DNA from: Pseudorhodobacter antarcticus
Lineage (GTDB): Bacteria > Pseudomonadota > Alphaproteobacteria > Rhodobacterales > Rhodobacteraceae
DNA: 32,883 bases
Direction of reading: 5' to 3'
NCBI GenBank assembly: GCA_945871285.1
Contig: CAMBWO010000010.1
Coordinates: forward strand, 1 to 32,883
The notes under the pieces were generated by a model. That model was not told the origin of the DNA, did not search any database, and saw nothing but the letters and a program-made list of their open reading frames with translations. Each line of letters begins with the position of its first letter. Positions within the stretch are counted from its first letter, which is position 1. A program made the position numbers and the translations under genes. Of this stretch, positions 506-25,598 are shown one piece after another.

Positions 506-542
506 CGACAAAATCAGCCCTATTTCCCAGAAGGTCTCACCT

Positions 543-7499: not shown

Positions 7500-7515
7500 C
7501 TGGCAGGATGGCCTT

Positions 7516-8118: not shown

Positions 8119-8570
8119 TCTGGACCCTCCGCACGCAAGGAAAGCACCTCTACATTCACTGTCACCTCGCCGGCCTTCTCGAAAGACAACGTGACAGGAA
8201 AACTGTCACCCTCCTTCAGGGCTGCAGTCAGACCCATGAGCATCCCGTGATAGCCACCCGGCGAAAGTTGGACGCTTTGACCCGCCGGGACAGGGATCGA
8301 CATCGCATGAGGCATCGACGCGACGCCATCCTTGACCACAGTCTCGTGCAACATCGGCATCCCCGCTGCTGGCGTGGAAATGCCGACAAGAGCATCGTCG
8401 GTAGCGCCAACATTGCTGATCGAGACATAGAAAACGCCAGGACGGCCAGCGCCGATGGTGACCTTAGACCAGCCATGCTCGACGCTCAGATCACCCAACG
8501 TCACGGTTTCGCAGGCAAGGGCCGCTGATGCAGTCAACGACAGGGTCGCAGCAAGCAACAAGTGTTTCAT
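8097..8570 (-). CDS. PCuAC-type periplasmic copper chaperone (DUF461)
   Basis: The 157-residue protein has a signal peptide (cleavage after about ALA, residue 19) and the cupredoxin-like PCuAC fold. The diagnostic Cu(I) motif H-x10-M-x21-H-x-M fits exactly: H75, M86, H108, M110. Family members hand copper to SCO or to the CuA site of cytochrome oxidase. The two flanking SCO genes support this role. It starts four bases after copy B of SCO ends and overlaps copy A. Confidence 0.92.
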   Translation of the reverse strand: MKHLLLAATLSLTASAALACETVTLGDLSVEHGWSKVTIGAGRPGVFYVSISNVGATDDALVGISTPAAGMPMLHETVVKDGVASMPHAMSIPVPAGQSVQLSPGGYHGMLMGLTAALKEGDSFPVTLSFEKAGEVTVNVEVLSLRAEGPDCADAGQ

Positions 8571-8573
8571 GGG

Positions 8574-9167: not shown

Positions 9168-9198
9168 ATAAATTTCCGAACACTGGATTATTTTGAGA

Positions 9199-9229
9199 GT
9201 GCTAGAACCTTGAGCAGCTAGAGGTTCAA
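9199..9229 (-). promoter_or_regulatory. MerR-type promoter/operator of the SCO/PCuAC operon
   Basis: On the minus strand: TTGAAC, a 19-base spacer, TAGCAC. The spacer contains CTCTAGCTGCTCAAGG within the larger dyad AACCT...AGGTT. A long 19-base spacer with a dyad between the hexamers is the hallmark of promoters activated by MerR-family proteins. The core CTCTAGCTGCTCAAG differs at three of 15 positions from the lnt site. Confidence 0.72.
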
Positions 9230-9272
9230 GCGACATTGGCGTGAGTTTTGGCCACCGGCGATGTTTCGCCGA

Positions 9273-9446
9273 TCATTCGCCACGGAGATACCGTCCCAAG
9301 GCGATCCCGAGGAAGGTACCGAAAAGGCCAAATGCGATTGCGAAACCAACCCCATATTGCAGCCGGTCCAGCCGCTTGCCACCGCGCTGCCGCGCGAGGA
9401 GATAGCCCCAAACAAATCCGATGGCCCCAAATAGCGGTCCGATCAT
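9273..9446 (-). CDS. 57-residue two-helix membrane protein coupled to lnt
   Basis: The protein begins MIGPLFGAIGFVWGYLLARQ and ends with a second glycine-rich hydrophobic helix (VGFAIAFGLFGTFLGIALGR) and a charged tail YLRGE. The two helices flank a short basic loop (RQRGGKRLDR). I do not recognise a family. The ATG overlaps the lnt stop (ATGA) and AAGGA lies seven bases upstream, so it is translated together with the N-acyltransferase. Glycine-zipper helices suggest self-association or a partner within the membrane, perhaps Lnt itself; this is inference. Confidence 0.68.
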   Translation of the reverse strand: MIGPLFGAIGFVWGYLLARQRGGKRLDRLQYGVGFAIAFGLFGTFLGIALGRYLRGE

Positions 9447-11008
9447 GTTGATATCCTTGTCAAGAAAGTTGTATTTCGCAGCCGCGGCCGCAGTCTGATG
9501 GTAACCCATGCAAGCAGGACCAGCGCCAAAGCGGTCCAGTCGCCGAAGCGAGCATAAGGGGTCGGCGAAAGCGGTCGTGGCAAGCGCGTGTCAATTATTC
9601 CTGGCGTTACAAGTTCGAGCATAGCGACCGTCCGACCGTAGGCGTCGACCACAGCGGAAATTCCGGTGTTGGCCGCACGAACAAGCGGGAGACCTTCTTC
9701 GACCGCTCGCATTCGGGCTGAAGCCAGATGTTGCCACGGTCCGATCGAAGTGCCGAACCAGGCATCGTTGGTTGCGTTGAAGATCCAGTCTGGACGGATC
9801 GCATCATCGGCGACATGGCCGGGAAAGATTGCCTCATAGCAGATCGCCACTCCAACATAGGGGTGGGGCCCAATCGCCAGTGTGCGTGGTCCAGGGCCGG
9901 GCGCAAAATCGCCCAAAGATTGAACTAACCGCTGAAACGGCAACACACTGCGCCAGGGAACATACTCGCCAAAGGGCACGAGGTGATGCTTGGCGTAACG
10001 TGTAAGGATTGTGCCGTCCGGAGCGATGGCGAGGACGGAATTGCGGTAGACCGTCCCCGCCCCGGTTTCTTCCCGCTCCGCGCTGCCGGTGAGCAAGACA
10101 CCCGTTTCGGACAACAGCCACCCCAACATGGCCCGCGCGCCACGATCTTCTGCAAGGAACCCAGGCCAGGCTGTTTCGGGCCAAAGCAGAAGATCGAACG
10201 ACCCGGGGCGGGCCGACAGGGAAAAAAGCCGCAGGATGTTCGCTTTTCGGGAAGTTTCATCCCATTTGGCACTTTGCGCGATGTTTGGCTGCACGACCCG
10301 AACCTGCGTGCCACGGTCCGACGCCGGGTCTGAGGTGGCAATCCGAACCACTCCAAAGCCTGCAACGCTGACCAAAATCGCAGCCGCCCCAGTCAGGCGA
10401 AGCATCCGCAGATGGCGGTCAGCACGACCGAAGGCGAGACCAGCAAGTGACGCACACAGCACGAGCAGAAATCCAAGCCCGTAACTGCCGACCACCGAAG
10501 CGGCTTGGGACAGAACGGTCCAGTCAGCCAGCGTGTAGGCTGCAAGATTCCATGGAAACCCGGTCACGACATGTCCTCGCAGCCCCTCAGACGCCGCCCA
10601 AGACGTGGCGAGCGACAGCGCTGGAGCCAGGCCGGACCGCGCCATGCGCGCCGCGACGGCACATGCCAATGCTGGAAACGCCGATAGCAGCCCGGCGAGG
10701 GCGAACACAGCAGGCAGCGCGAGCCATCCGAACCGGTCTGCCTCGACCTGAAAGCTTTCAGTGATCCAGAGCAGGCCGGGCACAAACTGTCCCAAGCCGA
10801 ACATATATCCAAGCCCGAACGCCCCAAGCGCCGACGCGCCACGCAACACCAGTGCAAGCGCCACGAAGGCAACCAGCGCGAGCGGCAAAATCGAATAGGG
10901 CGGCAGGGCGAGGACAAGGCATGCACCTGCCGCTATGACAATCCCCAGTCTGGCCAGACGTCGCAGGTGCGTCCTGCCGGAAAACGGATGTCCGTCTGAA
11001 ATGATCAA
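9443..11008 (-). CDS. lnt: Apolipoprotein N-acyltransferase
   Basis: The protein of about 521 residues has an N-terminal multi-helix membrane domain (about 20-225) and a C-terminal nitrilase-like periplasmic domain. The catalytic triad is present: E278 (LLWPETAWPGF), K340 (YAKHHLVPFGEYVP) and C390 (VGVAICYEAIFPGHV). Lnt adds the third acyl chain to the N-terminal cysteine of lipoproteins. The ORF track begins at a TTG at 11026. I prefer the TTG at 11008 because GGAGGT lies 11 bases upstream of it, whereas the 11026 codon overlaps that Shine-Dalgarno and has none of its own in the short leader. Being under a MerR-type promoter and far from the usual housekeeping context, this is probably a metal-inducible paralogue; whether the genome has another lnt is unknown. 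Confidence 0.9.
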   Translation of the reverse strand: MIISDGHPFSGRTHLRRLARLGIVIAAGACLVLALPPYSILPLALVAFVALALVLRGASALGAFGLGYMFGLGQFVPGLLWITESFQVEADRFGWLALPAVFALAGLLSAFPALACAVAARMARSGLAPALSLATSWAASEGLRGHVVTGFPWNLAAYTLADWTVLSQAASVVGSYGLGFLLVLCASLAGLAFGRADRHLRMLRLTGAAAILVSVAGFGVVRIATSDPASDRGTQVRVVQPNIAQSAKWDETSRKANILRLFSLSARPGSFDLLLWPETAWPGFLAEDRGARAMLGWLLSETGVLLTGSAEREETGAGTVYRNSVLAIAPDGTILTRYAKHHLVPFGEYVPWRSVLPFQRLVQSLGDFAPGPGPRTLAIGPHPYVGVAICYEAIFPGHVADDAIRPDWIFNATNDAWFGTSIGPWQHLASARMRAVEEGLPLVRAANTGISAVVDAYGRTVAMLELVTPGIIDTRLPRPLSPTPYARFGDWTALALVLLAWVTIRLRPRLRNTTFLTRIST

Positions 11009-11038: not shown

Positions 11039-11069
11039 CGGCTAACTGCTCTAGCAACTAGAGGTGCAA
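11039..11069 (-). promoter_or_regulatory. MerR-type promoter/operator of the lnt operon
   Basis: On the minus strand: TTGCAC, a 19-base spacer CTCTAGTTGCTAGAGCAGT, TAGCCG. The spacer contains the near-perfect dyad CTCTAG-TTG-CTAGAG. The core matches the P-type ATPase site CTATAGTTGCTAGAG at 14 of 15 positions, with identical position relative to the -35 hexamer. Confidence 0.8.
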
Positions 11070-11279: not shown

Positions 11280-11945
11280 ATGTTCACACGACGCCATTTC
11301 ATTGCAACGACAGCCGCGCTGTTCTCGGCACCGATTGCCGCCCCGGTGTTCGCCGCGTCGCATCTGCAAGATCAGTGGGCGGCTTGGGATGCGGAGGTTA
11401 CTCCGCCGGGCTATGATCCGGCCATGACCAATCCTTGGGGATTGCATCCGCGCCTGCTGCCGACCCGCGTCGAAGCTCGTGCAGGGCTGGTGCCGGGCGA
11501 TATCCATGTCGACGCGATCGCGAGGTATCTCTACCATATTTAGGCTGATGGCACGGCCATGCGCTACGGCGTCGCCATCGGCCGTGATGGCTTGTACGAG
11601 CCCGGAACCTACACGATCCGCCGCAAGGCGAAATGGCCAAGCTGGACGCCGACCCCCGCCATGATTGAGCGTGAGCCGGAAATCTATGCGAAATATGTCG
11701 ATGGCATGGCCCCCGGTCCGGCAAATGCCTTGGGTTCCCGCGCGCTCTATCTCTTTGTTGGTGAGCGCGACACCTATCTGCGAATCCACGGCTCTCCGCT
11801 TCCGGGTTCAATCGGAAGCCGCGCGAGTTCGGGCTGTGTGCGCATGGTCATGCCACATATCAACGACCTGTTCGATCAGGTCGAGGCTGGCGTAACGGCG
11901 CATCTCTACCCCGCCGAAGAAGGGAATGTGGCGACGACCCTGTGA
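11280..11945 (+). pseudogene. L,D-transpeptidase (YkuD) interrupted by an in-frame amber codon
   Basis: A Tat-type leader MFTRRHFIATTAALFSAPIA opens a reading frame that runs to RYLYHI and meets TAG at 11541-11543. The same frame then continues ADGTAMRYGVAIGRDGLYEP to the YkuD catalytic block IHGSPLPGSIGSRASSGCVR and ends at 11945. The two ORF-track entries (11205 and 11559) are halves of this one gene; total length without the stop would be 221 residues, typical for these Tat-exported enzymes, which cross-link or anchor proteins to murein. A single CAG-to-TAG change explains the break. The downstream half lacks a signal peptide if translated alone. Alternatives are suppression by an amber suppressor tRNA or a sequencing error. 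Confidence 0.88.
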
Positions 11946-11994: not shown

Positions 11995-12318
11995 TCAGCC
12001 CACCGAGGCAGTTTTGGCTGCAGCGTCGGTGCAAATCGTCCTGCCCCTAACCGATCGCAGCGGCAACATCGTCGTCTCAACCGGCCCGACATGGCGGTAC
12101 CAATAGCAGCCGTCTTCGGGTTTCAGGATCACTTCCTGCAGGTTCTGATACGGTGCCGCAATCAGGGCGACGCCTTCCGGCAGCTCCTTGAGAAACCCAG
12201 TCGTCTTGTCAGTTGCCTGATTGATCGGGACGGTGCAGGCCCCAAGTGCCAGAAACCCAATCGCAAGACAAATCGGCCGCAACCGTTTCAAAGCCACGGG
12301 TGGGGTTTGGTTTATCAT
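11995..12318 (-). CDS. Small lipoprotein of unknown function
   Basis: The 107-residue protein has a lipoprotein signal, KRLRPICLAIGFLALGAC, with lipobox LGAC. The mature part contains a distinctive CYWYRHVGPVETTMLPLRSV segment and a second cysteine near the end (RTICTD). I do not recognise the family. The start at 12318 follows GAGGA at good spacing. It lies 123 bases downstream of the ZIP gene on the same strand and so may belong to the oxidase-ZIP operon. It is a candidate client for LspA and Lnt. Confidence 0.7.
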   Translation of the reverse strand: MINQTPPVALKRLRPICLAIGFLALGACTVPINQATDKTTGFLKELPEGVALIAAPYQNLQEVILKPEDGCYWYRHVGPVETTMLPLRSVRGRTICTDAAAKTASVG

Positions 12319-12441: not shown

Positions 12442-13623
12442 CTATACCTTGATCAGGGCCGCGGTGGCATACATGAACGCGAGCCCGGCAAGAAAACCGC
12501 CAAGAACAGCGGGAGCAAACAGCACGAATTGCCGGTCGTTGTTCTGGCGCATGAGGTAGGCGGTGACCTCGACCATGACCTGCAGGATCGCACCTGCCCC
12601 GACGGCCAGTGCCAATGCCGACCACTGCGGCGCATAGGCCAGACTGCCCGCCCACATGCCCAGAACTGCCGGGCCGCCCGCCAGTAACGTAAGGGCAGCA
12701 AAGGTCCAAAGTGGTGGCCGGACACGCAGCATTGGTGCGGCGATGCCGATGCCTTCCGTCACATTGTGCAGCGCAAATCCGAGGACGAGGAAGGTGCCAA
12801 GCCCTGCCGACCCGGCAGCGAACGCCCCACCGATGGCCAGCCCTTCTCCGAAATTGTGCAACCCGATCCCGAGGGCGATGTAGAAGGCCAGCGCCAGCCC
12901 TTCGGGCGTGCCGCGCCAGCGTCCGATGGCCATCAGCAACAGGAAACTCGCCAAGCCGGCCAGCCAGACCATTGCAGACCCCTGGAACAATGCGGCGGCA
13001 CTGGCCGCAAGTTCCAGCGCCTCGGAGGTCATGTCGATGAGCAGAAAGGCCAGCAGGCCCACAGTCAGCGCGAGCAGGAAATTCATGCCCCCCCGCCCGA
13101 CCCCGCGCATCGCCGGATAGAACATCAAGCCAAGCGCCACCGGCAGCAGGCCGACAATTGCACCCACCAGCGCCTGAAGCCGCAGTTGGCCACCCGTGGC
13201 CTTTGGCGTCGGCACAGCCACAGCAATTTCATGCTCGAATGCGGTCCCGGTGTTGGACAGCATATTCACAAGATGCGCTTCACCCAAAACCCAAGGATAG
13301 GGGATCTGCACCCAGACGGTATCGCCGCGCGCAATCGGTCCCGGCGGGTCTTGCGTGAACGTCCAGAACGCATCGTCTACGGCCACTTGCGCAATAGCCA
13401 TGGGTTCTGATCCACCGGCGCGCACCAGCAGCCCGATCCCGGCCTCGTCCAGAATGGTCCGCTCCACAGTCAGCGCTTCGACCGCGGGCGCGCCGTTGTT
13501 GAAGCTGCGCAGGGGATCAAGCGACGCGATCCAGACGAAGGCACCAAGCATGGCTGCCAACGGCACAAGCACCAATAGCAGACGGGTCAGCACGGGGCGG
13601 GTTGGTTGGTTCTGGTCGCTCAT
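12442..13623 (-). CDS. ZIP-family metal transporter with an N-terminal extracytoplasmic domain
   Basis: The 393-residue protein has one N-terminal helix (about 12-34), a non-hydrophobic stretch of about 110 residues (about 37-147) and then seven or eight helices with the two ZIP metal motifs HNFGEG (256-261) and HNVTEG (286-291). ZIP proteins move Zn, Fe or Mn into the cytoplasm. Ordinary bacterial ZIPs are about 260-300 residues and lack the soluble front domain. Its ATG overlaps the stop of the multicopper oxidase (ATGA), so the two are made together. The mntR gene diverging from this operon points to manganese or iron as the substrate. Confidence 0.82.
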   Translation of the reverse strand: MSDQNQPTRPVLTRLLLVLVPLAAMLGAFVWIASLDPLRSFNNGAPAVEALTVERTILDEAGIGLLVRAGGSEPMAIAQVAVDDAFWTFTQDPPGPIARGDTVWVQIPYPWVLGEAHLVNMLSNTGTAFEHEIAVAVPTPKATGGQLRLQALVGAIVGLLPVALGLMFYPAMRGVGRGGMNFLLALTVGLLAFLLIDMTSEALELAASAAALFQGSAMVWLAGLASFLLLMAIGRWRGTPEGLALAFYIALGIGLHNFGEGLAIGGAFAAGSAGLGTFLVLGFALHNVTEGIGIAAPMLRVRPPLWTFAALTLLAGGPAVLGMWAGSLAYAPQWSALALAVGAGAILQVMVEVTAYLMRQNNDRQFVLFAPAVLGGFLAGLAFMYATAALIKV

Positions 13624-14765
13624 GCTGCGGGTCCCCGAACGTCAAACATGCCGACCCAGCCAAGCTCGGTGAACTCGGACTGGTGGGCGTGGAACATGTA
13701 CATGCCATCCTCGTGCTCGGCGAAGCTGAATTCAAGAATGCCGCGCTGCGCCTGACACTGGGTGATAAGATCGACGGTGCGCAGGGTGGGCGTCAGTGTG
13801 GTGCCGGTGTCGAAGTAGTTAAAGAAATTCGCGTGCAGATGGAACGAGTTGATCGGGTCGAACTCGGTCACGTTGACCAAGTAGATCCGCACGGGCCGGG
13901 TCTTGTCGATTTGGATCGGCACGTTCATGTAGGCTTGGCCGACAGTATTGGCGGCATAAACCTCGTTGGCACCGTCGAAGTTTGTATCGAAGGCGTTCAT
14001 CACCATCGCCAGTTCCTGCCATTCGGCATTCTCGGGACTGCCGTGCAAGCGCGACGCAGCAATAGCTGTAAAGGCCGGGTCCGTCTGGCGGGCTGGGTCG
14101 GGGTCGATGACGAACAGTCCATACATGCCCTTGTGCATGTGCCGTTTCAGCGGCAGCGCATGGCAGTGATACACATGGCAGCCAAAGGGCTTTGCGTCGA
14201 ACTCGTAGATGAATTCCTCGCCGGGCCCGATCAGCCCGGCACCGGGAACACCGTCCATCCGCGCTGAATGGATGCCATGGAAATGCATGGAATGTGGGTG
14301 CGAGCCCAGATTGCGGAAGACGATCCGCAGCCTTTCACCTTCCTTCGCCCTCAGGGCCGGTCCGGGCACACGACCGTTGAATGTCCAGGCGGGAAAAAAG
14401 ATGCCGGGGGCAATCTCGATTTCTCTGTCGATGGCATCGACTTCGAAAGTGCGCAGAGTCCTGCCATCGGGCAGCAGCTCGGTTCGACCAGTCTCCCAGT
14501 CTGTTAACATGGAGGTAGGATCGAACCCGTTCCTGCCGTGATCTACCAGACCGACCGTTGTCATGTTGCCATGCGCCATCCCCGACATGGGTGCCGCATA
14601 GGGATCGGATGGCATGTTGGACATGTCGTGACCGGCCATCGGGTCTGGTACGCTTTGCGAGCGCGCGCTGCCAGCAGCGATCGCAGCACCACCGGCGGCC
14701 ACAAGACCACCGACAAGCAGAGCGCGGCGCGACGGGTCAACGGAGCGTTCGGTATCGGCAGGCAT
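13620..14765 (-). CDS. Multicopper oxidase, second type (Tat-exported)
   Basis: The 381-residue protein has a Tat leader (PSRRALLVGGLVAAGGAAIA), a Met/His-rich linker (MAGHDMSNMPSD..MSGMAHGNM) and copper motifs MHFHGIH, HVYHCHALPLKRHMHKGMYG, FHLHANFF and FHAHQSEFTELGWVGMF. It is shorter than CueO-like enzymes and organised like two-domain oxidases or nitrite-reductase-like cupredoxins, so its substrate could be Mn(II), Fe(II) or Cu(I). The start at 14765 has GAGGAAG upstream. It is the first gene of an operon with the ZIP transporter and diverges from mntR across a palindromic operator. Confidence 0.88.
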   Translation of the reverse strand: MPADTERSVDPSRRALLVGGLVAAGGAAIAAGSARSQSVPDPMAGHDMSNMPSDPYAAPMSGMAHGNMTTVGLVDHGRNGFDPTSMLTDWETGRTELLPDGRTLRTFEVDAIDREIEIAPGIFFPAWTFNGRVPGPALRAKEGERLRIVFRNLGSHPHSMHFHGIHSARMDGVPGAGLIGPGEEFIYEFDAKPFGCHVYHCHALPLKRHMHKGMYGLFVIDPDPARQTDPAFTAIAASRLHGSPENAEWQELAMVMNAFDTNFDGANEVYAANTVGQAYMNVPIQIDKTRPVRIYLVNVTEFDPINSFHLHANFFNYFDTGTTLTPTLRTVDLITQCQAQRGILEFSFAEHEDGMYMFHAHQSEFTELGWVGMFDVRGPAA

Positions 14766-14879: not shown

Positions 14880-15338
14880 ATGACGAACGTTGATCTCCAG
14901 AAAATAAATGCAGTCGAGCCTGAAGCCCGGGCTGGCGACGCCCGCGCCGAGGCGTTTCAGGGCGTGCGCGTGGCAAGGCGCAATGAACTGGCGGAAGACT
15001 ACGTCGAGTTGATCGCCGAATTGATTCACAATCAGGGCGAAGCGCGTCCCGTCGACATTGCAACCAAGATGGGCGTCACGGCACCCACCGTTGCCAAGAC
15101 TCTCGGCCGTCTTGCCCGGGATGGCCTGATCACCCGCGCCAAGTATCGCTCCGTTTTTTTGACTGAGGAAGGCCGCGCACTGGCCAAGGAATGCCGCCAC
15201 CGGCATGAGATCGTGTTGCGGTTTCTGATCCGCCTTGGGCTTGACCCTGAGACAGCCGAACACGACGCCGAAGGCATCGAACATCACGTCAGCGAGCGCA
15301 CGCTTGCCTTGTTCGCAGCATTTGCCAATCGGTCCTGA
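14880..15338 (+). CDS. mntR: Manganese-responsive repressor MntR (DtxR family)
   Basis: The 152-residue protein has an N-terminal extension, a winged helix-turn-helix (about 55-95, VDIATKMGVTAPTVAKTLGR) and a metal-binding/dimerisation domain with RHRHEIV and AEGIEHHVSERTLALF, which match the metal ligands of proteobacterial MntR. The single-domain length (no SH3 domain) also fits MntR and not DtxR. It represses Mn uptake genes or activates Mn export when Mn is replete. The ORF track opens much earlier (14538); the ATG at 14880 is chosen because similarity begins about there and the palindromic operator lies just upstream. Confidence 0.88.
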   Translation: MTNVDLQKINAVEPEARAGDARAEAFQGVRVARRNELAEDYVELIAELIHNQGEARPVDIATKMGVTAPTVAKTLGRLARDGLITRAKYRSVFLTEEGRALAKECRHRHEIVLRFLIRLGLDPETAEHDAEGIEHHVSERTLALFAAFANRS

Positions 15339-15346
15339 GCGGACGC

Positions 15347-16006
15347 TCAGACACTTTCGACCGCAGCTTTGACTTCGGCAATCAAACTTTCCGGGCTCAC
15401 GTTTTCCAGCCGTTTGCCGTCTAGAAAGAAGGTCGGCGTCTGACGGATCCCAACGGCTTCGACATCGGCCATGTCCTGATTGAGGACACCGGTAATCCCT
15501 GGAAACAGGCGGTCGCTCTCGGCCTTTTTCAGATCAAGCCCAACCGCCCCCGCCACCCGCCAGGCGACATCCATCTGCGGTCCGTCGTGCAGCGCCCAAG
15601 TGGGCTGCTTTTCAAGGAGGGCGTCGAGAACTTGTTCAAACTTGTCCTGCATCCGCGCGACCTCAAGGATGCGCACTGCCTCGTCCGAACCTTGGTGGAA
15701 CACCGTGTAGCGCAGCACGACACGGACCTGCGTGGGGAACTGCTTTTTGATTTCCATCACGGTCGGGTGAAAGGCGCGGCAGGCCTCGCAGGAAGGATCG
15801 AAGAACTCGACCAGCGTGACCGGCGCATCGGCGGGGCCAAAGCTGGGGGAGTGGGGGCGGATCAAAAGTGCCGGGTCGACGGCCGGGGTAGCAGCGGCGA
15901 CCGCTTCGGCTTCGGCCTTACGTTGGCGGTTCAGGAAAAAGGTGCCGCCGCCGAAAGCGACAAGGCCAAGGGCCGAAGCCCCGATCAACAAGGTGCGGCG
16001 GTTCAT
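15347..16006 (-). CDS. DsbA-family thiol oxidoreductase (CEAC active site)
   Basis: The 219-residue protein has an N-terminal anchor or signal (about 5-25) and a DsbA-type thioredoxin fold with VTLVEFFDPSCEACRAFHP, cysteines at 73 and 76, and the cis-Pro motif TPTFF near the C-terminus. CEAC is an unusual active-site dipeptide. Its ATG overlaps the dsbB stop (ATGA), making a dedicated DsbA-DsbB pair that forms disulfides in exported proteins. It is the last gene of the P-type ATPase operon. Confidence 0.88.
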   Translation of the reverse strand: MNRRTLLIGASALGLVAFGGGTFFLNRQRKAEAEAVAAATPAVDPALLIRPHSPSFGPADAPVTLVEFFDPSCEACRAFHPTVMEIKKQFPTQVRVVLRYTVFHQGSDEAVRILEVARMQDKFEQVLDALLEKQPTWALHDGPQMDVAWRVAGAVGLDLKKAESDRLFPGITGVLNQDMADVEAVGIRQTPTFFLDGKRLENVSPESLIAEVKAAVESV

Positions 16007-16440
16007 GTGCGGGTTCCTTTGGGAAAGATCAGACAGGCAAGAATGACGGCAAAAGCCGCCAGCGACAGGTAGGGAATAGGCAGGCCAAGGATGATCTGCG
16101 CCGGACCCGAGCATGAGGGGCCGTCCTTGGTACAAGGCGCGACCGCCTCGGGGACAAGTCCGAGATAAAGCCCGGAGTGCCAACCTGCCAGTGCCAGACC
16201 CGCCAGCACCAGCGGAAGGGCGTAAGGGCGCGCTATGCCATCCCCGCGCCAGAGCGACAGGCCAAGGATCGGCACCAGCGGGAACATCGCGATGCGCTGA
16301 TACCAGCAAAGGGTGCAGGGCATCTGACCCAGCACCTCGCCGATGAACAGCGCGCCAAGCGTCGCGGCAAGTGCGATCAGGAACGCGGCCGTCAGGGGCA
16401 CGTCATCGCGCGACAGCGTCTGTGTATCAGCGTTGGTCAA
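16003..16440 (-). CDS. dsbB: DsbB-like disulfide bond formation protein
   Basis: The 145-residue membrane protein has four helices and both DsbB cysteine pairs: PCTLCWYQR (C42, C45) and PCTKDGPSC (C103, C110). DsbB reoxidises DsbA by passing electrons to quinone. The start is a TTG at 16440, chosen because AAGGAG lies eight bases upstream; the ORF-track start at 16563 would add a non-hydrophobic extension lying inside lspA. It overlaps lspA by 14 bases. Confidence 0.88.
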   Translation of the reverse strand: MTNADTQTLSRDDVPLTAAFLIALAATLGALFIGEVLGQMPCTLCWYQRIAMFPLVPILGLSLWRGDGIARPYALPLVLAGLALAGWHSGLYLGLVPEAVAPCTKDGPSCSGPAQIILGLPIPYLSLAAFAVILACLIFPKGTRT

Positions 16441-16912
16441 GAACAGGCTCCTTACGGCGGCGAAAGGGCAGAGAGGCGGTGATGATGCAGACCGCCCCCA
16501 GCGTGATGGCGATATCCGCGACATTGAAAGTGGGCCAGTGCCAGTCGCGCCAGTAGAGATCAAGGAAATCGGTCACCGCACCTTGCCGCAGCCGGTCGAC
16601 GATGTTGCCGATCGCCCCACCAACTACAAGGGCAAAGCCCGCGCGTTCAAACGGATGGCGTGCCCGGAACGCCATGACAGCAAACATCAGGGTCAGTGCT
16701 CCGGTCAGCGCTGCCATCAGTAGGGGTTTGCCTGCCATCACGCCCGACAGCATGCCGAAGCTCGATCCTTCGTTGAAACCGAGCGTCAGGCTGAAGCCGG
16801 GCATGACGGCAACCGGCTGGCCAAGCGCGAGCTTTGACAGGGCTGCTGCCTTGCTCAGCTGATCGGCGAGAGTAGTTGCCGCGATCAGGACGACAATCCA
16901 CCGCTTCTTCAT
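16427..16912 (-). CDS. lspA: Lipoprotein signal peptidase (signal peptidase II)
   Basis: The 161-residue protein has four membrane helices and the family motifs: ADQLSK (16-21), FNEGSSFG (46-53), GGAIGNIVDRL (98-108), then the catalytic aspartates D115 (AVTDFLDLY) and D133 (FNVADIAI). It cleaves prolipoprotein signal peptides before the lipidated cysteine. Placement within a metal-efflux operon recalls PbrC of lead-resistance operons, which is an LspA-type protein. It overlaps both neighbours. Confidence 0.92.
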   Translation of the reverse strand: MKKRWIVVLIAATTLADQLSKAAALSKLALGQPVAVMPGFSLTLGFNEGSSFGMLSGVMAGKPLLMAALTGALTLMFAVMAFRARHPFERAGFALVVGGAIGNIVDRLRQGAVTDFLDLYWRDWHWPTFNVADIAITLGAVCIITASLPFRRRKEPVLDQR

Positions 16913-17532
16913 GGCATTTCCTTAGCGCGAAAGCCAATCCAGCGCGGAACCGAGGCAGCATAGCGGTCGTAGTCCGATCCGAGGGTCTGACGCAGCGCTG
17001 CCTCTTCCGACCGGACCTGCATAGTGGCCGACCAAAGGAAAAGGATTGCCGCAAGGATCGTCGGAACAGCAGGGACCGCGAGGGCGACCCCGGCCAGCAG
17101 GGCGATCTGTCCGACAAAGGTCGGGTTGCGACTGAATTGATAGAGGCCACCTGAGACGAGGTTGCCTGTCTGGCCGCTCACCACACCGACACGCCAGGAG
17201 GTGCCCATCGACATCTGAGCGGCAAAGGCCACCATCGCGCCAAGGCCCGCGATGAAGATGCCGATCGTGCTGATCGTCAAAGCATTTCCCTCGGTCCAGA
17301 ACGGATCGACCTTGTGCAGCATGGGCAGCGCCAACCACAGGAGCGGCCCGAAGAAGGCAAGCGCGAACGCCGCGCGGAACCCGAGGGCCGCCAACCGGTC
17401 GTGCCCCGTGGCGCGCGCAAACAGCCAGACCGGTCGTCCCGCTGCCTGCGCTGCAACAGCACTGCCCCAAAAGAACAACGCGAGATAACCGAAGAGAAGG
17501 GCCAGCGCGGCCCAACCAAAGCCAGACATCAT
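16909..17532 (-). CDS. Isoprenylcysteine carboxyl methyltransferase-like membrane protein
   Basis: The 207-residue protein has about five hydrophobic segments and the C-terminal ICMT/PEMT-type signature: GGLYQFSRNPTFVGQ (128-142) and the EE pair (176-177) followed by YDRYAASVPRWI. Eukaryotic ICMT methylates prenylated cysteines; bacterial homologues are mostly uncharacterised and often lie in metal-resistance operons with P-type ATPases and CDF exporters. It starts four bases after the ATPase ends and overlaps lspA by ATGA. Two adjacent start codons (17532, 17529) cannot be distinguished. Confidence 0.82.
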   Translation of the reverse strand: MMSGFGWAALALLFGYLALFFWGSAVAAQAAGRPVWLFARATGHDRLAALGFRAAFALAFFGPLLWLALPMLHKVDPFWTEGNALTISTIGIFIAGLGAMVAFAAQMSMGTSWRVGVVSGQTGNLVSGGLYQFSRNPTFVGQIALLAGVALAVPAVPTILAAILFLWSATMQVRSEEAALRQTLGSDYDRYAASVPRWIGFRAKEMP

Positions 17533-17536
17533 TGCA

Positions 17537-19822
17537 TCACGCCTCGCGTTCGGGGTTGAACCGCAGCAGGCGCAGCGCGTTCAGGGTGACCAGCACAGTT
17601 GCCCCAGTATCGGCAAGAATGGCGATCCAGAGGCCCGTCAGCCCCAGAACCGAGGTCACCAGAAACACGGCCTTCAACCCAAGCGCGATCGTGACGTTCT
17701 GCCGGATGTTTGCCATCGCCGCGCGCGACAACCGGATCGTCGCAGGAATGTCCGTCACCCGGTCACGCAGGATCGCTGCATCGGCGGTTTCCAGCGCGAC
17801 ATCGGTGCCTGACCCCATCGCCACGCCCACACTCGCTTGCTTCAGCGCGGGCGCATCATTGATGCCGTCGCCGATCATCATCACGCCGCCCCGTTCACTC
17901 ATCGTCTTGATGGCCTTCAGCTTGTCTTCGGGCATCATGTCGGCCTGAAACTCCATGCCGAGCCCGCCTGCAATCGCGGCCGCCGTGCGCGGGTTGTCGC
18001 CGGTCAGGATGACCGAGGTCACGCCCATCGCAGTAAGTTGGCGCACCGCCTCCTTGGCGTCAGTTCGCGGCTCGTCCCGCATGGCGATCAGGCCGAGCGG
18101 AGTCTTTTCGCGGAACACCGCGACGGCGGTCTTGCCGTCCTCCTCAAACACCGTGGCCTGCCGCAGGCCGAGGCCATCGAGCCCGCCATTCTCCATGGCG
18201 TAGCGCGGCGAAGCGACCCATGCCGATGCTTCGCCAACCGTTGCGATCACGCCCTTGCCCATCAGGGCCTTGGCATCGCGCGACGGCAGAGCCGCGACAC
18301 CGGCATCCTTGGCCTTGTTCAGGATGGCGATGGCCAGAGGGTGGCTCGACCCGGTTTCGACCCCCGCTGCAACAGCCAGCAACTCCGCTTCAGTCGTGGT
18401 GCCGAAAACAACCACGTCTGTGACCTTCGGCCGCCCGTGCGTCAGCGTTCCGGTCTTGTCGAAGGCGATGCGGTTGACCTTCGCCGCCGCCTCGATCACT
18501 GCGCCGCCCTTCATCAGCAGCCCTCGTTTTGCGCCCGTGGACATCGCCGAGGCGATGGAAGCTGGGACCGAGATGACCAGTGCGCAAGGGCAACCGATCA
18601 GCAGCAGCGCCAGCCCACGATAGACCCAAGTGTCCCACGGCTGACCAAAGGCCAGCGGCGGCACCAGCACGACAAGGGCCGCGACCGCAACGATTGCGGG
18701 CATATACCAGCGGCTGAACCGGTCGATGAACCGTTCGGTTGGCGCGCGGGCCTCCTCGGCCTCTTCGACCAGACGGATGATGCGGGCGATGGTATTGTCT
18801 TCCGGCCCCTTGGTCACTTTGACCCGCAGCGCCGCTTCGGTGTTGATCGAGCCAGCAAACACCGAATCCCCCGGCCCGCGTGTCTTGGGCACGCTTTCGC
18901 CGGTGACCGGGCTTTCATCGACGCCGGAGGTGCCTTCGGAAATCTCGCCATCCGCCGGAATACGGTCACCGGGACGAACGAGGATCATTTGACCGACTGA
19001 CAGGCTGGCCGCGGCCACCTCTTTCGTCGTGCCGTTCACTTCCAGCAGCGCGGTTTTGGGTACCAGATTGGCCAGGGCCCGGATACCTTCACGCGCTTTG
19101 CCGGCTGCGACACCCTCCAGTACTTCGCCCACGGCAAACAGAAACACCACAATTGCAGCCTCGGCGGCGGCGTCGATGAACAACGCCCCGATCGCGGCCA
19201 CCGTCATCAGGCTTTCAATGGTAAACGGCTGACCCATCCGCAGCGCCGCGAATGCGCGTTTCGCCACCGGGGCCACGCCGATCACGCAAGCGGCAACAAA
19301 GGGCCACTTGCCGATCTCGGGCGCCAGATACTCGATTATCCAGGCCACCCCCAACAAGAGGGCGGTGAAGATCACCAGCTTGCCCTTGCCAGTCTGATAC
19401 CAGCGCTTGCCGCGATCCGCAGGATCGTCATGGACATGACCGGGGCTGCCATGACCGGAGTCTTCGCGCTTTGCGGCGGCGTCAGCCTGCGGGCGCTGGT
19501 CGTGCCCCACATGATTGTGGTCGGCGTGTTCTCCAGCGTGTTCCTTCGCAACCTCCGCGACGGGCAACACGAACTCTTTCTTCGCCGATGCCGCACGCGG
19601 CGCGATCTGATAGCCGAGGGCGCGCACGGTCTTCTCGATCTTGTCCCGCCCGGTCTGGGCCTCGTCCAGCGTGAGGCGCAGGCGCTCAGTCATGATGCCG
19701 ACCTCGACGCCGCTGACCCCCGGCAAACGCGCCACCGCGTCCTTGATCTTGGTCGCACAGGACCCGCAGTCCATGCCGGAGACAGTCCAGTCGCAGGTGG
19801 TTTCGCCGTTTGACGCTGTCAT
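17537..19822 (-). CDS. Heavy-metal P1B-type ATPase (ZntA/CadA-like)
   Basis: The 761-residue protein has an N-terminal HMA domain with GMDCGSC (16-22), a His-rich linker (EHAGEHADHNHVGHD), eight expected helices, the CPC metal site in GCPCALVISVPASI, the phosphorylation site DKTGTLTHG, SSHPLA and the hinge GDGINDAPALKQASVGVAMG. The combination of CPC with a later DVALETADAAIL fits the Zn/Cd/Pb export group. The start at 19822 is chosen because AGAGAGGAAGACA precedes it; the 19861 ATG would sit almost at the transcription start. It is the first gene of a five-gene operon (ICMT-like, lspA, dsbB, dsbA) under a MerR-type promoter. Confidence 0.93.
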   Translation of the reverse strand: MTASNGETTCDWTVSGMDCGSCATKIKDAVARLPGVSGVEVGIMTERLRLTLDEAQTGRDKIEKTVRALGYQIAPRAASAKKEFVLPVAEVAKEHAGEHADHNHVGHDQRPQADAAAKREDSGHGSPGHVHDDPADRGKRWYQTGKGKLVIFTALLLGVAWIIEYLAPEIGKWPFVAACVIGVAPVAKRAFAALRMGQPFTIESLMTVAAIGALFIDAAAEAAIVVFLFAVGEVLEGVAAGKAREGIRALANLVPKTALLEVNGTTKEVAAASLSVGQMILVRPGDRIPADGEISEGTSGVDESPVTGESVPKTRGPGDSVFAGSINTEAALRVKVTKGPEDNTIARIIRLVEEAEEARAPTERFIDRFSRWYMPAIVAVAALVVLVPPLAFGQPWDTWVYRGLALLLIGCPCALVISVPASIASAMSTGAKRGLLMKGGAVIEAAAKVNRIAFDKTGTLTHGRPKVTDVVVFGTTTEAELLAVAAGVETGSSHPLAIAILNKAKDAGVAALPSRDAKALMGKGVIATVGEASAWVASPRYAMENGGLDGLGLRQATVFEEDGKTAVAVFREKTPLGLIAMRDEPRTDAKEAVRQLTAMGVTSVILTGDNPRTAAAIAGGLGMEFQADMMPEDKLKAIKTMSERGGVMMIGDGINDAPALKQASVGVAMGSGTDVALETADAAILRDRVTDIPATIRLSRAAMANIRQNVTIALGLKAVFLVTSVLGLTGLWIAILADTGATVLVTLNALRLLRFNPEREA

Positions 19823-19870: not shown

Positions 19871-19901
19871 AATCTAATGTCTCTAGCAACTATAGCTTCA
19901 A
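19871..19901 (-). promoter_or_regulatory. MerR-type promoter/operator of the P-type ATPase operon
   Basis: On the minus strand: TTGAAG, a 19-base spacer CTATAGTTGCTAGAGACAT, TAGATT. The dyad CTATAGTTGCTAGAG closely resembles published PbrR/CadR-type operators (CTATAGTAACTAGAG pattern). It sits in the gap between the ATPase and the divergent merR gene, as is usual for the family, so it probably also autoregulates merR. Confidence 0.85.
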
Positions 19902-19911
19902 GAGGAATCTG

Positions 19912-20352
19912 ATGCTGACCATAGGGAAACTTGGGGCACAGGCCGGGGTGAAGGTGCCGACCATCCGCTACTACGAGCAAATCGGCATCTTGCCCGAGGC
20001 TGAACGCAGTGCCGGAAACCAGCGACTTTACAGCCGCAAGGCGCTCGAACGGCTGGCCTTCATCCGGCACGCCCGCGATCTGGGCTTCACGCTGGAGGCC
20101 ATCCGGGACCTTCTCAGCCTGTCGGACAATCCCGACCAGTCCTGCGCAGCCGCTGATACCATCGCCAAGGCTCAACTGGCGGAGGTCGAGAGCCGCATCG
20201 CGCGCCTGACGGCGCTAAAAGCGGAACTCGAACGCATGGTCGTGCAGTGCGCAGGCGGGCGGATCGCTGATTGCCGGGTGATTGAGGTGCTGGGGGATCA
20301 TTCGCTTTGTGCAACAGATCACCGCCACCCGCACTCCGCCCACCCGGACTAG
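19912..20352 (+). CDS. MerR-family Cd/Pb/Zn-responsive regulator (CadR/PbrR-like)
   Basis: The 146-residue protein has the MerR winged helix (VPTIRYYEQIGILPEAERS), a dimerisation helix and metal ligands C78 (QSC), C113 and C121 (QCAGGRIADC), the three-cysteine pattern of CadR/PbrR. The C-terminal tail HSLCATDHRHPHSAHPD adds His and Cys as in CadR. It would activate the divergent ATPase operon by untwisting the 19-base spacer. AGAGGAA precedes the ATG. Which metal it prefers cannot be read from the sequence. Confidence 0.9.
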   Translation: MLTIGKLGAQAGVKVPTIRYYEQIGILPEAERSAGNQRLYSRKALERLAFIRHARDLGFTLEAIRDLLSLSDNPDQSCAAADTIAKAQLAEVESRIARLTALKAELERMVVQCAGGRIADCRVIEVLGDHSLCATDHRHPHSAHPD

Positions 20353-20362: not shown

Positions 20363-20686
20363 TCACGTGCTCGCCTTGCTTTGGTTGACTGGTCGGCAAG
20401 TCCCAAGATCGCACTCCGCCCCATCGGCTAAGTTTGGCACCTGTGCCTGCCGCCGCCTGCGGTGTTGGCGCAGCCAAATTGCGCCGCCTGCCAGAGCCGC
20501 CAGCGCGATACCGCCGCACAGGATGACATCAAGGCTCAGTCCGGCCAGCCAGCCGCTTGCCGCGCCTCCAGTGCCGACCAGCCCTGCCGCGACGAGTGCG
20601 GGCCAGACCAAGGGGATGACAAGGGGAGCGCAGCAGGCGGCGCACGCTGCTGCCGTCCCGGTGATGGCAAGTTTTCGCGAAACCAT
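20363..20686 (-). CDS. MerT/MerF-like small cysteine-containing membrane protein
   Basis: The 107-residue protein has two or three hydrophobic segments. The first carries AAACAACCAPLVIPL, a CxxCC cluster, and the cytoplasmic tail has ECDLGTCRP. Paired cysteines in helix 1 and a second pair in a tail or loop are characteristic of mercury transporters MerT and MerF, but similarity beyond that is slight, and no MerA or MerP is seen. The start at 20686 is preferred to 20713 because of GGAGAA upstream. It diverges from the second MerR gene across a MerR-type promoter, so it is likely its target. The ligand could be Hg or another thiophilic metal. Confidence 0.6.
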   Translation of the reverse strand: MVSRKLAITGTAAACAACCAPLVIPLVWPALVAAGLVGTGGAASGWLAGLSLDVILCGGIALAALAGGAIWLRQHRRRRQAQVPNLADGAECDLGTCRPVNQSKAST

Positions 20687-20714
20687 GGGCTTCTCCGATT
20701 CGATGTCTTGCAAT

Positions 20715-20745
20715 CGTGTAACACTTCAAGCTACTTTAAGAGCAA
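20715..20745 (-). promoter_or_regulatory. MerR-type promoter/operator of the MerT/F-like gene
   Basis: On the minus strand: TTGCTC, a 19-base spacer TTAAAGTAGCTTGAAGTGT, TACACG. The dyad CTTAAAGTAGCTTGAAG is imperfect (12 of 17 positions symmetric) and clearly differs from the CTAG-type operators elsewhere in the window, consistent with recognition by the second MerR protein and not the first. Confidence 0.6.
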
Positions 20746-20769
20746 GCTGAATATTTTGGGGCTTTTGCG

Positions 20770-21183
20770 GTGTTGTTGACCATCGGACAAGTCGCGGACA
20801 GGTCGGGCTGCACGCCGCCGACAATCCGCTATTATGAAAGCATCGGGCTGTTGGCAGTGCCAGCACGCAGCGATGCGGGCCGCCGGTCATACAGGCCCGG
20901 GGATGTTGCCCGACTTGCGTTCATCCGGCGGGCGCGGGATTTTGGACTCGGCATCCCTCAGGTCCGAGACCTCCTTTCTGCGGCCGAAGCGCCCGCCTCG
21001 GCCTGCGCCGTGGCCCGGCCGGTGGTCGAAGACCATATCCGAGCGCTTCGGACCAAACGTACCGAACTGAAGGCACTGGAAGCCGCCCTTGGCGCGATTC
21101 TTGCCCGCTGCGACGAAGGCTGCCAAACGGGAAACGCGGACGCTTGCGCTATCTTCGGTGATTTCCATCTGCCAAGGGCATGA
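20770..21183 (+). CDS. MerR-family metal regulator, second copy
   Basis: The 137-residue protein (GTG start; a TTG two codons later is an alternative) has the MerR winged helix [20 protein letters not shown] and cysteines at 79, 114, 118 and 126 ([15 protein letters not shown]). The 35-residue spacing between the first two equals that of MerR of Tn21 (C82, C117), compatible with a thiolate metal site. It differs in the metal loop from the CadR/PbrR-like protein at 19912. It diverges from the MerT/F-like gene and overlaps ynfA by ATGA. Confidence 0.82.
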
Positions 21184-21515
21184 AAGATATGAATACTGTC
21201 CTGATTTATGCTGGAGCGGCCGCCGCGGAAATTGCTGGCTGCTTTGCCGTCTGGGCCTGGATGCGGCAAGGGGCGAGCGCCTTCTGGCTGGTCCCCGGCT
21301 CGGTCAGCCTTGGAGTTTTCGCCTGGCTACTGACCCTTGCCCCGTCCGATTTTGCCGGGCGGTCTTATGCCGCATACGGCGGCGTTTACATCACCGCCTC
21401 GCTGGGATGGCTTTGGGCTGTCGAAAAGCAGCACCCCGACACTTGGGATTTGACCGGGGCCGCGATCTGCCTGATCGGCGCGGCCATCATCCTGTGGGCG
21501 CCACGCGCCGCGTAA
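21180..21515 (+). CDS. ynfA: YnfA/UPF0060-family membrane protein
   Basis: The 111-residue protein has four short membrane helices and the family hallmarks [38 protein letters not shown] and [13 protein letters not shown]. YnfA is a small SMR-like membrane protein; SMR-type efflux of cationic compounds has been proposed. Coupling to a MerR regulator through an ATGA overlap suggests metal-responsive expression. It ends three bases before a convergent gene. Confidence 0.9.
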
Positions 21516-23283: not shown

Positions 23284-24738
23284 TCAATGCGCGCCGTGGC
23301 CCTCCGGTTCAGTCATGCGGAACGGCAGGTCGATCGACTTGCCATTGGCGTGCAGGACAAGTCGTGCGTCGAACTCATGCGGCTCGGCCGGGGCGTCCAT
23401 GCTTTGCATGCGGTGGTGATCGCCGGGTTGCGGCATCAGAAACAACGTCTCAGGTCCGGTGGGCCGGTCGATGACGACCATGGCGGTCAGCGCTTCGGCA
23501 TGCTGGTCAATCGTCAGCCGCATCCGTTCGCCCTGCGGTGTGTCCACGATTTCCAGCACACCATCTGCCAGATCGCAGGTTACGATGAAGGGGTCGGGGG
23601 CATGATGGTGGCTATGATCATCGAATTCGGAGACGTCATGATGTCCATTTTCCGCCCCGTGCGGATGGGCATGACCGTGGGGATGGACCTGTGGCCCGTG
23701 ATGAGGGTGGTCGTGCCCGTGCGACTTGGCCGGAACCTCTACGGCGGTAGGCACCTCGATCCGGATGCTGACCTGCGCCAGCACCGGAAGGTGGCCAAAG
23801 AGTTCAGCCTTCATCGCCGACACGATGGTCTGTGCCTGCGCCACCGTCACCGTCTCGTCCAAATGGACCGACAGTTCGGCATGCAGCTTGTGCCCCAGCC
23901 AGCGCGCCTGCACCCCATGCACCCCGATCACGCCGGAGACATGTTCGGCGGCGTGGTCGATCTCGTCCAAGATGTCCGGCTCTACCCCATCGAGCATGCG
24001 CGTTAGCACGGCACGGGCCGATTGCCAGACGATGCCGAAGATGGCGAGTGTGATCAGCAGGCCAACGATCGGATCTGCGAGCGGGAAACCCGCCCAAACG
24101 CCGATCGCCCCTAGGACCACGGCAAGGCTGGTGAACCCGTCGGTGCGGGCATGGTAGCCATCGGCGATCAGGGCGGCGCTGCTGATCTCCCGCCCGACAC
24201 GAATGCGGAACACCGCCACCACCTCGTTTCCGACAAAGCCGATCAGCCCCGCGATAAAAACCCATCCAAGATGCGAAATCGGTTCCGGATTGATCAGACG
24301 GTTGATCGACTGATAGCCGGCGACCAACGCCGAAAACAAGATGATGGCGACAATGAACAGGCCTGCGAGATCCTCGACCCGGCCAAGGCCGTAAGTGAAT
24401 GTGCGCGACGGCTTGCGACGCGCCAGCAAGAACGCGACCCAGAGCGGAATGGCCGTGACCGCATCGCCAATGTTGTGGATCGTGTCGGCCAACAGCGCCA
24501 CGCTGCCCGACAAGAACACGATGACAAGTTGCGCCGCCGCCGTCAGGGCCAGCAACACGAAAGACCATTTGATCGCCCAGATCCCGCGCGACGTAGTCGC
24601 AATCATCGGGTCGATGACGCCATGAGTATGCCCATGCCCACCTTCGCCATGGTCATGACCATGAGCGCCGTGACCGTGCTCACCGAGGCCGTGCCCGTTC
24701 TTGCCAAAGCCGAACCAGTTCAGGATTGCATCACGCAT
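23284..24738 (-). CDS. dmeF: CDF-family Co/Ni exporter (DmeF-like) with extra C-terminal domain
   Basis: The 484-residue protein starts with a His-rich tail (GLGEHGHGAHGHDHGEGGHG), then six helices with CDF metal sites LADTIHNIGDAV and IADGYHARTDGFTS, and the usual cytoplasmic domain. It then has a second His-rich linker (about 340-383) and about 100 additional residues (384-484, FIVTCDLADGVLEIVDTPQG onward) not found in standard DmeF proteins of about 320 residues. This tail is beta-like and ends in HGAH. DmeF exports Co and Ni from the cytoplasm. It follows dmeR by seven bases. Confidence 0.88.
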   Translation of the reverse strand: MRDAILNWFGFGKNGHGLGEHGHGAHGHDHGEGGHGHTHGVIDPMIATTSRGIWAIKWSFVLLALTAAAQLVIVFLSGSVALLADTIHNIGDAVTAIPLWVAFLLARRKPSRTFTYGLGRVEDLAGLFIVAIILFSALVAGYQSINRLINPEPISHLGWVFIAGLIGFVGNEVVAVFRIRVGREISSAALIADGYHARTDGFTSLAVVLGAIGVWAGFPLADPIVGLLITLAIFGIVWQSARAVLTRMLDGVEPDILDEIDHAAEHVSGVIGVHGVQARWLGHKLHAELSVHLDETVTVAQAQTIVSAMKAELFGHLPVLAQVSIRIEVPTAVEVPAKSHGHDHPHHGPQVHPHGHAHPHGAENGHHDVSEFDDHSHHHAPDPFIVTCDLADGVLEIVDTPQGERMRLTIDQHAEALTAMVVIDRPTGPETLFLMPQPGDHHRMQSMDAPAEPHEFDARLVLHANGKSIDLPFRMTEPEGHGAH

Positions 24739-24745
24739 TTTGGCC

Positions 24746-25024
24746 TCACAGATACTTGGTGATCAGCTTGAATTCTTCGACCTGAGCCCGCTGATCGCGC
24801 GGCAAGGGGCCGGTGATATCTTCCAGACAGTGGTCGATATGATCGTGGATCAGCGCCTTCTTGGCCTGCGCGACCGCCTTTTCGACGGCCTGAAGTTGCT
24901 GGGCCACGTCGAGGCAGGGCCTCCCGGCCTCCAGCATCTCGATGATGGACCGCAGGTGACCATCCACCCTTTTGAGGCGGTTGATGATGTCCGGGTGCGA
25001 GCTGTGCGACGCTGTGTCTGTCAT
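24746..25024 (-). CDS. dmeR: DmeR/RcnR-type Co/Ni-responsive repressor
   Basis: The 92-residue all-helical protein belongs to the CsoR/RcnR family: HPDIINRLKRVDGHLRSIIE, C37 (GRPCLDV), and histidines H60, H62 and H65 (LIHDHIDHC). A cysteine plus histidines on helix 2 is the Ni/Co pattern of RcnR and DmeR and not the Cu pattern (Cys-His-Cys) of CsoR. Apo-protein should repress its own operon, dmeR-dmeF-nreB-yqaA. The matching GC-tract operator lies just upstream. Confidence 0.9.
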   Translation of the reverse strand: MTDTASHSSHPDIINRLKRVDGHLRSIIEMLEAGRPCLDVAQQLQAVEKAVAQAKKALIHDHIDHCLEDITGPLPRDQRAQVEEFKLITKYL

Positions 25025-25031
25025 AAGGCAT

Positions 25032-25060
25032 ACCTATCCCCCTGGAGGGGATATAATCAA
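25032..25060 (-). promoter_or_regulatory. dmeR promoter with embedded DmeR/RcnR-type operator
   Basis: TATCCCC-5-GGGGATA is a perfect 7-bp inverted repeat (25035-25053) with the G/C tracts typical of RcnR/CsoR operators. On the minus strand it fills the 17-base spacer between TTGATT and ATAGGT, ideal for repression. On the plus strand the right arm runs into TATAAT (25052-25057), a perfect -10 hexamer, though no good -35 accompanies it, so the same operator may also control the rightward HupE operon. Confidence 0.78.
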
Positions 25061-25083
25061 GGGGCTTTTTGCTGCCATTGACC

Positions 25084-25130
25084 GGCCTGCTGAGCGGCTC
25101 CGGCGTGTTCCGGCCGTCGCTCAGCAGGTC
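25084..25130 (+). ncRNA. Stable hairpin in the leader of the HupE operon (function unknown)
   Basis: CCTGCTGAGCG (25086-25096) pairs perfectly with CGCTCAGCAGG (25118-25128), and one more G-C pair forms outside a wobble. The 21-base interior contains CCGG repeated, which could pair further. It is not followed by a T-run, so it is not a simple terminator. It lies between the TATAAT at 25052 and the first gene of the operon at 25248, so it would be in the 5' untranslated RNA. No known riboswitch class is recognised. Confidence 0.45.
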
Positions 25131-25247
25131 GGGGTTGCTCTGGCCGATGTATTGGGTTACGTCTTTCCGATGGGATCTTCGGATCGAAGAATTGGCTTTA
25201 TCGGTGCGCAGAGACACCGGGTGGCACAGAGGCGGCAGGCAGTGGCA

Positions 25248-25598
25248 ATGCAGTGGATCACTTGCGCAGTGCGGCGGGCTTTGGCCTTCGCCGTGATGTT
25301 CGCGCTGATCCTTGCACCGGTCATCATCGCCGCCACGCATGGACCGGGCTTGCCGACGAATAGTGCCTTGTCGGCCGAGAATATTTTGCACGGGCATTCG
25401 CATGACGTGCCCAAGCCGGGACAATCTGGCATTGCCCATGACGCAACAGATCACGAGCATCAGACGCAACTGATTCTGACGCAAGGCAGTGACGCGGTGA
25501 TTCCGTTTGGCGCATTGCGCCTCGGCATGTCTGAGGTTCTGGCTAGCAGTTTGCCGCCGTCTGGGCTTAGGCGACCACCGAAGACCCTGTCAGTTTGA
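25248..25598 (+). CDS. Small exported His-rich protein upstream of HupE-like permease
   Basis: The 116-residue protein has an N-terminal hydrophobic signal (ALAFAVMFALILAPVIIAA), a His-rich stretch (HGHSHDVPKPGQSGIAHDAT, DHEHQT) and a C-terminus ASSLPPSGLRRPPKTLSV. Such His clusters suggest Ni, Co or Zn binding in the periplasm. I do not recognise a named family. The ATG at 25248 is chosen because the signal peptide begins there; the ORF stays open upstream to 24972, but that part overlaps dmeR and the promoter. The next gene starts 56 bases downstream. Its tail resembles that of the Met-rich protein at 3377. Confidence 0.65.
   Translation: MQWITCAVRRALAFAVMFALILAPVIIAATHGPGLPTNSALSAENILHGHSHDVPKPGQSGIAHDATDHEHQTQLILTQGSDAVIPFGALRLGMSEVLASSLPPSGLRRPPKTLSV

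Follow-up and report, generated by a model that had tools for sequence, protein, structure and literature searches.

A putative metal-responsive regulon joining Zn/Cd/Pb efflux to lipoprotein and disulfide maturation in Pseudorhodobacter antarcticus

Introduction

Genes for lipoprotein-modifying enzymes have been described in association with metal resistance in several bacteria. The pbr operon of Cupriavidus metallidurans, whose pbrA promoter has been footprinted, includes PbrC, an LspA-family protein (PMC3431237). In Mesorhizobium, Zn raises the expression of a PbrC-like LspA more than 3-fold (PMC3668242), and lit2/lgt2 are located on a copper-inducible element (PMC8689077). Here we describe a 32,883-nucleotide stretch of the Pseudorhodobacter antarcticus genome (GenBank assembly GCA_945871285.1, contig CAMBWO010000010.1, positions 1 to 32,883, forward strand; hereafter the window), in which genes for a Zn/Cd/Pb efflux pump, an ICMT-like membrane methyltransferase, LspA, DsbB and DsbA are arranged as an operon, and in which lnt follows a second operator of the same type. 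Judging from gene order and operator sites, we lean towards the view that these genes form a regulon inducible by metal, in which Zn/Cd/Pb efflux is coupled to added lipoprotein and disulfide maturation capacity in the envelope. A search of the open-access literature turned up no description of the five-gene operon and none of a CadR/PbrR-type operator preceding lnt; the parts have precedents (PbrC, CzcN and Listeria lit2/lgt2), and their combination appears new.

A five-gene operon behind a CadR/PbrR-type promoter

The operon, its downstream limit and its control region comprise the following features.

17537..19822, minus strand: zntA-like P1B-type Zn/Cd/Pb ATPase (family profiles), with an HMA domain with CxxC and a CPC motif
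16909..17532, minus strand: ICMT/PEMT-family membrane methyltransferase of the CzcN-like class (PF04191, PF04140)
16427..16912, minus strand: LspA, signal peptidase II (family profiles), with D106, D115, N130 and D133 invariant
16003..16440, minus strand: DsbB of BdbC type (PF02600), with cysteines 42, 45, 103 and 110 invariant
15347..16006, minus strand: DsbA/BdbD/ScsC-class thioredoxin-fold oxidoreductase, with a hydrophobic segment at the N terminus and CEAC as its active site
14880..15338, plus strand: MntR (NCBIfam MntR above cut-off), a conserved convergent neighbour that marks the downstream limit of the operon
19912..20352, plus strand: MerR-family regulator, CadR/PbrR/ZntR-like (Pfam/NCBIfam; best PDB match CadR), with Cys78, Cys113 and Cys121
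19871..19901, minus strand: zntA operator-promoter of CadR/PbrR type, TTGAAG - CTATAGTTGCTAGAGACAT (19 base pairs, bp) - TAGATT

All five genes are intact and stand in the order claimed by the first-pass annotation, and the junctions of +4, -4, -14 and -4 bases agree with it exactly. The dsbB gene starts at TTG behind an AAGGAG ribosome site. A scan for internal sigma-70-like promoters, itself insensitive, gave 0 matches within the operon against 0.7 expected, and the genes would be read as a single zntA-to-dsbA transcript. Transcription behind one metal-responsive MerR-type promoter, as first proposed, is supported by the divergent CadR/PbrR-like regulator gene and the dyad promoter between it and zntA. 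The dyad CTATAGTTGCTAGAG (19881-19895) lies within the 19-bp spacer, and the promoter diverges from the merR gene. The same search pattern retrieved the Cupriavidus pbrA promoter, whose layout matches that of zntA, and the strict pattern had no match in shuffled sequence. The regulator scored 110 bits, below the curated NCBIfam CadR-PbrR cut-off of 151, and we therefore call it CadR-like rather than CadR although CadR is its best PDB match. Because its nearest solved relative is CadR and the pump belongs to the Zn/Cd/Pb group, the signal is likely to be a divalent metal of the soft kind, and the inducer would be Zn, Cd, Pb or possibly Hg.

The unit is conserved well beyond this genome. An ICMT alignment scan of 85,462 species genomes yielded 80 loci, nearly all in Rhodobacterales with some in Hyphomicrobiales; together with the window, four plasmid loci and one more genome locus these made a set of 86. 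This set is anchored on close ICMT relatives, is silent on lspA-dsbBA without ICMT, and includes some near-identical loci. The zntA-ICMT pair is present in all 86 and the complete five-gene order in 70. Where both neighbours were intact, the zntA-ICMT spacing was +4 (71 loci) or +3 (9), ICMT-lspA -4 (72), lspA-dsbB -14 (69) and dsbB-dsbA -4 (68). The zntA operator is kept upstream of zntA in most loci, and mntR holds the same position in most related loci. Among 47 distinct complete operons, inter-gene distances were correlated (Mantel r 0.64-0.90, each p = 0.001), and median ratios of nonsynonymous to synonymous substitution rates (dN/dS) of 0.11-0.18 indicated purifying selection on all five genes. 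Random co-occurrence in related genomes, which would have spoken against the operon as first described, is thus not what was found: with the order kept in 70 of 86 loci and the spacing nearly uniform, the unit is far from a chance assembly.

In the same 47 operons the LspA catalytic positions, the four DsbB cysteines, the DsbA CEAC site and the ICMT motifs show no variation. LspA scores above the TIGR00077 cut-off, and its catalytic D115 and D133 align with those of solved LspA. The DsbB/DsbA pair combines C42, C45, C103 and C110 of DsbB with CEAC and a cis-proline (T190-P191) in DsbA, whose model matches the folds of 3gyk, ScsC and BdbD; CEAC occurs in 47/47 operon DsbA proteins and in 30/30 matches of another set. 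The methyltransferase is less readily placed. It passes PF04140 (31.8 bits, cut-off 24), PF04191 (PEMT) scores higher still, and the NCBIfam ICMT equivalog gives 25.7 against a cut-off of 160. R135-N136-P137 and E176-E177 are invariant, and there is a weak PDB match to ICMT 5v7p. Its predicted structure (predicted local distance difference test, pLDDT, 76) had no PDB match at E<=0.001, the best being steroid 5-alpha-reductase (template modelling, TM, score 0.41, E 0.15). Its substrate may be a lipid or a thiol at the membrane.

A second operator before lnt

The interval 15347-19822 assigned by the first-pass annotation is correct for the five genes, and it leaves out three further elements that are apparently part of one regulon or island with them.

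9443..11008, minus strand: lnt, apolipoprotein N-acyltransferase (PF20154 and PF00795; alignment with PDB Lnt)
11039..11069, minus strand: second operator-promoter, before lnt, TTGCAC - CTCTAGTTGCTAGAGCAGT (19 bp) - TAGCCG, with a perfect dyad at 11049-11063
11995..12318, minus strand: small conserved lipoprotein of 107 amino acids, with lipobox LGAC and two further invariant cysteines

The lnt gene has a TTG start downstream of GGAGG, and its product contains WPE, RYAKHHLVPFGE and ICYE, thus carrying the Glu-Lys-Cys motifs. Its promoter has a 19-bp spacer like that of zntA and ends 30 bp ahead of the lnt start. The window holds exactly two perfect operator dyads, those of zntA and lnt, against 0.01 expected in shuffles. 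With one substitution allowed, the dyad stands at an equal distance before lnt in 12 other type-1 islands, that is, islands of the window's type; these are not 12 independent events, because several are near-identical, and the shuffled control gave 52 one-substitution matches in 2.06 Mb, both strands. Since lnt shares a zntA-type operator, LspA and Lnt, which perform steps two and three of lipoprotein maturation, are probably under one metal regulator. Overlooked at first, the lnt operator supports the lipoprotein part of the original idea more strongly than anything else.

The 107-residue lipoprotein is encoded at about 20 loci, in islands of the one layout and the other, always with the lipobox cysteine and the two other cysteines, and matched no Pfam family. 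It is a possible client of the island enzymes, as it would need LspA, Lnt and, should its two cysteines pair, DsbA. In the same region, a 230-residue open reading frame (11100-11789, minus strand) was dropped, lying opposite an L,D-transpeptidase (YkuD) gene (11280..11945, plus strand). The latter has one in-frame stop in the window and is intact in relatives such as L090, L101 and L112.

A second layout of the same functions

We searched 199 genomes of the host's family for DsbB, reading the neighbourhood at every strong match, and found 7 loci of the window type and 23 of a second layout. In the latter, merR faces SCO-dsbB-dsbA, followed by SCO-M23 and lspA, and the genes are diverged. The dsbB-dsbA pair is present in 23/23 and lspA in 21/23, and in 12/23 lnt overlaps or adjoins lspA. 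One annotated Sulfitobacter plasmid carries merR and SCO-dsbB-dsbA-PCuAC-SCO-M23-DUF411-ZIP-lspA-lnt in sequence. Beyond the family, 385 genomes from across the class gave 11 more strong DsbB matches, with MerR nearby in 11/11 and lspA in 9/11 of the stretches read; by rough estimate rather than computation, chance proximity of lspA would be about 1%, given about two lspA per 4-Mb genome. The second layout also shares one block with the window.

5860..9236, minus strand: SCO - PCuAC - SCO - M23 - DUF411 block, 3' of lnt

Several second-layout islands (e.g. L041, 11077-12623) hold a diverged ICMT-like gene after a CDF metal transporter gene, and the ICMT-like gene is therefore tied to a metal transporter there too.

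Neighbouring genes

Near one end of the window, a ScsC-like DsbA-fold protein with a ScsC N-terminal domain (375..1271, plus strand) is a second thiol oxidoreductase of the island. At 12442..14765 (minus strand) genes for a multicopper oxidase and a ZIP-type transporter overlap, and the small lipoprotein gene comes next; in many relatives Nramp replaces the multicopper oxidase/ZIP pair beside mntR. Beside the operon's regulator (20363..21515) lie genes for a small membrane protein, a second MerR and a YnfA-family protein, a group also seen in relatives L091, L092, L106 and L128. The small membrane protein is MerT-like by eye, with no Pfam family over the cut-off. Open reading frames of 218, 289 and 254 residues, in 1268..3094 (plus strand) and 24720..25484 (minus strand), had no Pfam match.

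A proposed role in envelope maturation under metal load

In the regulon that we favour, the CadR/PbrR-like MerR protein would sense a soft divalent metal and activate the 19-bp-spacer promoters, the first yielding the ZntA-type pump, the ICMT-like methyltransferase, LspA and DsbB/DsbA, and the second Lnt. Efflux would raise the periplasmic metal load, and thiophilic metals would block free lipobox cysteines as well as cysteines awaiting disulfide formation. Added LspA and Lnt may then drive prolipoproteins fast to the finished triacyl form, while DsbA/DsbB would oxidise exported thiols ahead of metal capture, such that cysteine-containing envelope proteins, the island lipoprotein included, could still be produced. 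Induction, clients and physiological effect are all predicted from sequence in this scheme.

The first-pass annotation had spoken of repair of exported proteins. That term does not fit: LspA acts on new prolipoproteins and DsbB/DsbA oxidise new thiols, and maturation is the better description because the operon has no isomerase or reductase of DsbC/DsbD type. Its thiol rationale fares better in the light of published work: copper acts on the +1 cysteine to block the acylation of lipoproteins, inhibits L,D-transpeptidases and disturbs disulfides, copper stress creating a need for DsbC (PMC6593411).

Several observations weigh against the proposed regulon. The published thiol evidence concerns copper, whereas the regulator and pump here look Zn/Cd/Pb-type; LspA and Lnt act downstream of Lgt, the copper-blocked step, and none of the genes annotated in the islands was recognised as Lgt. 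A Defluviimonas-like lineage has a degraded dyad ahead of lnt, and 10 of the 86 loci retain zntA-ICMT but lack lspA-dsbBA. Nor does the scheme account for the ICMT-like gene, which accompanies zntA more constantly than any other.

Periplasmic metal toxicity is usually put down to mis-metallation or oxidative stress. A regulon of pump, LspA, Lnt and DsbB/DsbA would point to envelope-protein maturation as a direct metal target and make the effect of Zn, Cd and Pb on it testable, as it already is for copper. If true, LspA in lead operons (PbrC) would gain a role without phosphate precipitation. More tentatively, and with the balance of our judgement against it, alphaproteobacterial metal islands may hold a dedicated, metal-induced second envelope-maturation pathway (LspA, Lnt, DsbB/DsbA and ICMT-like modification) in at least two layouts, the reason being that a halt in lipoprotein and disulfide maturation would be a main harm done by Zn, Cd or Pb.

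Alternative explanations

The island enzymes are extra copies: the genome holds another LspA (C150), Lnt (C125) and DsbB (C297) outside the island. They could be metal-tolerant isoenzymes that stand in for poisoned housekeeping LspA, Lnt, DsbB/DsbA and L,D-transpeptidase, much as antibiotic-bypass enzymes do. Consistent with such replacement, island LspA forms a clade (support 99/97) apart from the housekeeping clade (100/100) in a tree built without the PbrBC fusion and long branches that had spoiled an earlier one; for a common origin of type-1 and type-2 LspA, p-AU was 0.138. Island DsbB is BdbC-like and unlike the genome's other DsbB, the CEAC site of island DsbA is fixed, and the islands hold an extra gene for L,D-transpeptidase, a copper-inhibited enzyme (PMC6593411). 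However, the greater metal tolerance of the island enzymes is hypothetical and the window's L,D-transpeptidase gene is interrupted, and we regard replacement as unlikely, if the most serious rival.

Cuproprotein assembly, in which DsbA/DsbB, SCO and PCuAC would maintain the proper state of copper sites and their thiols, with LspA/Lnt processing the pathway's few lipoproteins, draws on the SCO and PCuAC genes that adjoin the module in many islands and on the ScsC-like DsbA model. Neither gene is found within the window operon, whose regulator and pump belong to the Zn/Cd/Pb type, and we consider this account quite improbable. That lspA-dsbB-dsbA entered a mobile metal operon as passengers, retained by linkage alone, would accord with the occurrence of the operon on plasmids and the lack of the block in some zntA-ICMT loci; purifying selection on each gene, invariant catalytic residues, the separate operator of lnt and the same functions in the second layout already disfavour it, and its probability is very low. 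Least credible is a PbrBC-like system in which LspA aids a phosphatase precipitating exported lead as phosphate, since despite the pbrA-type promoter and the LspA kinship of PbrC, neither the window nor the type-1 loci showed a UppP/PbrB-like phosphatase close to the operon, and the model gives dsbBA no role.

Comparison with known systems

One close parallel is the pbr operon of C. metallidurans (PbrR, PbrA, PbrBC), with its divergent MerR gene, 19-bp-spacer promoter and matching dyad (PMC3431237), and a P1B ATPase gene followed by an LspA-family gene. In contrast to the window, PbrC is fused to an undecaprenyl-pyrophosphate phosphatase, and the pbr operon lacks ICMT, DsbB/DsbA and lnt. ICMT-family membrane methyltransferases are likewise found in metal efflux clusters, namely CzcN/NccN and the merR-copA-cupredoxin-DUF2933-ICMT clusters (PMC7563307, PMC8478169), but no LspA or Dsb genes are described there and the ATPase of the copA clusters is of copper type.

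The Listeria/Enterococcus copper element, likewise mobile and metal-inducible, carries additional enzymes of lipoprotein modification next to its efflux genes (PMC8689077, PMC8275575); these enzymes are Lit and Lgt in Gram-positive hosts, whereas LspA, Lnt, DsbB/DsbA and a CadR/PbrR-type regulator are found here. The CadA locus of Mesorhizobium metallidurans has a Zn-inducible P1B ATPase together with a thiol-redox membrane protein and an LspA that likewise respond to Zn (PMC3668242), but CcdA takes the place of DsbB/DsbA and neither ICMT nor lnt is reported alongside. Finally, the Scs (suppressor of copper sensitivity) proteins, named for copper tolerance, and BdbD are structurally close DsbA-fold proteins, from which the island DsbA differs in its pairing with a BdbC-type DsbB and in its CEAC site.

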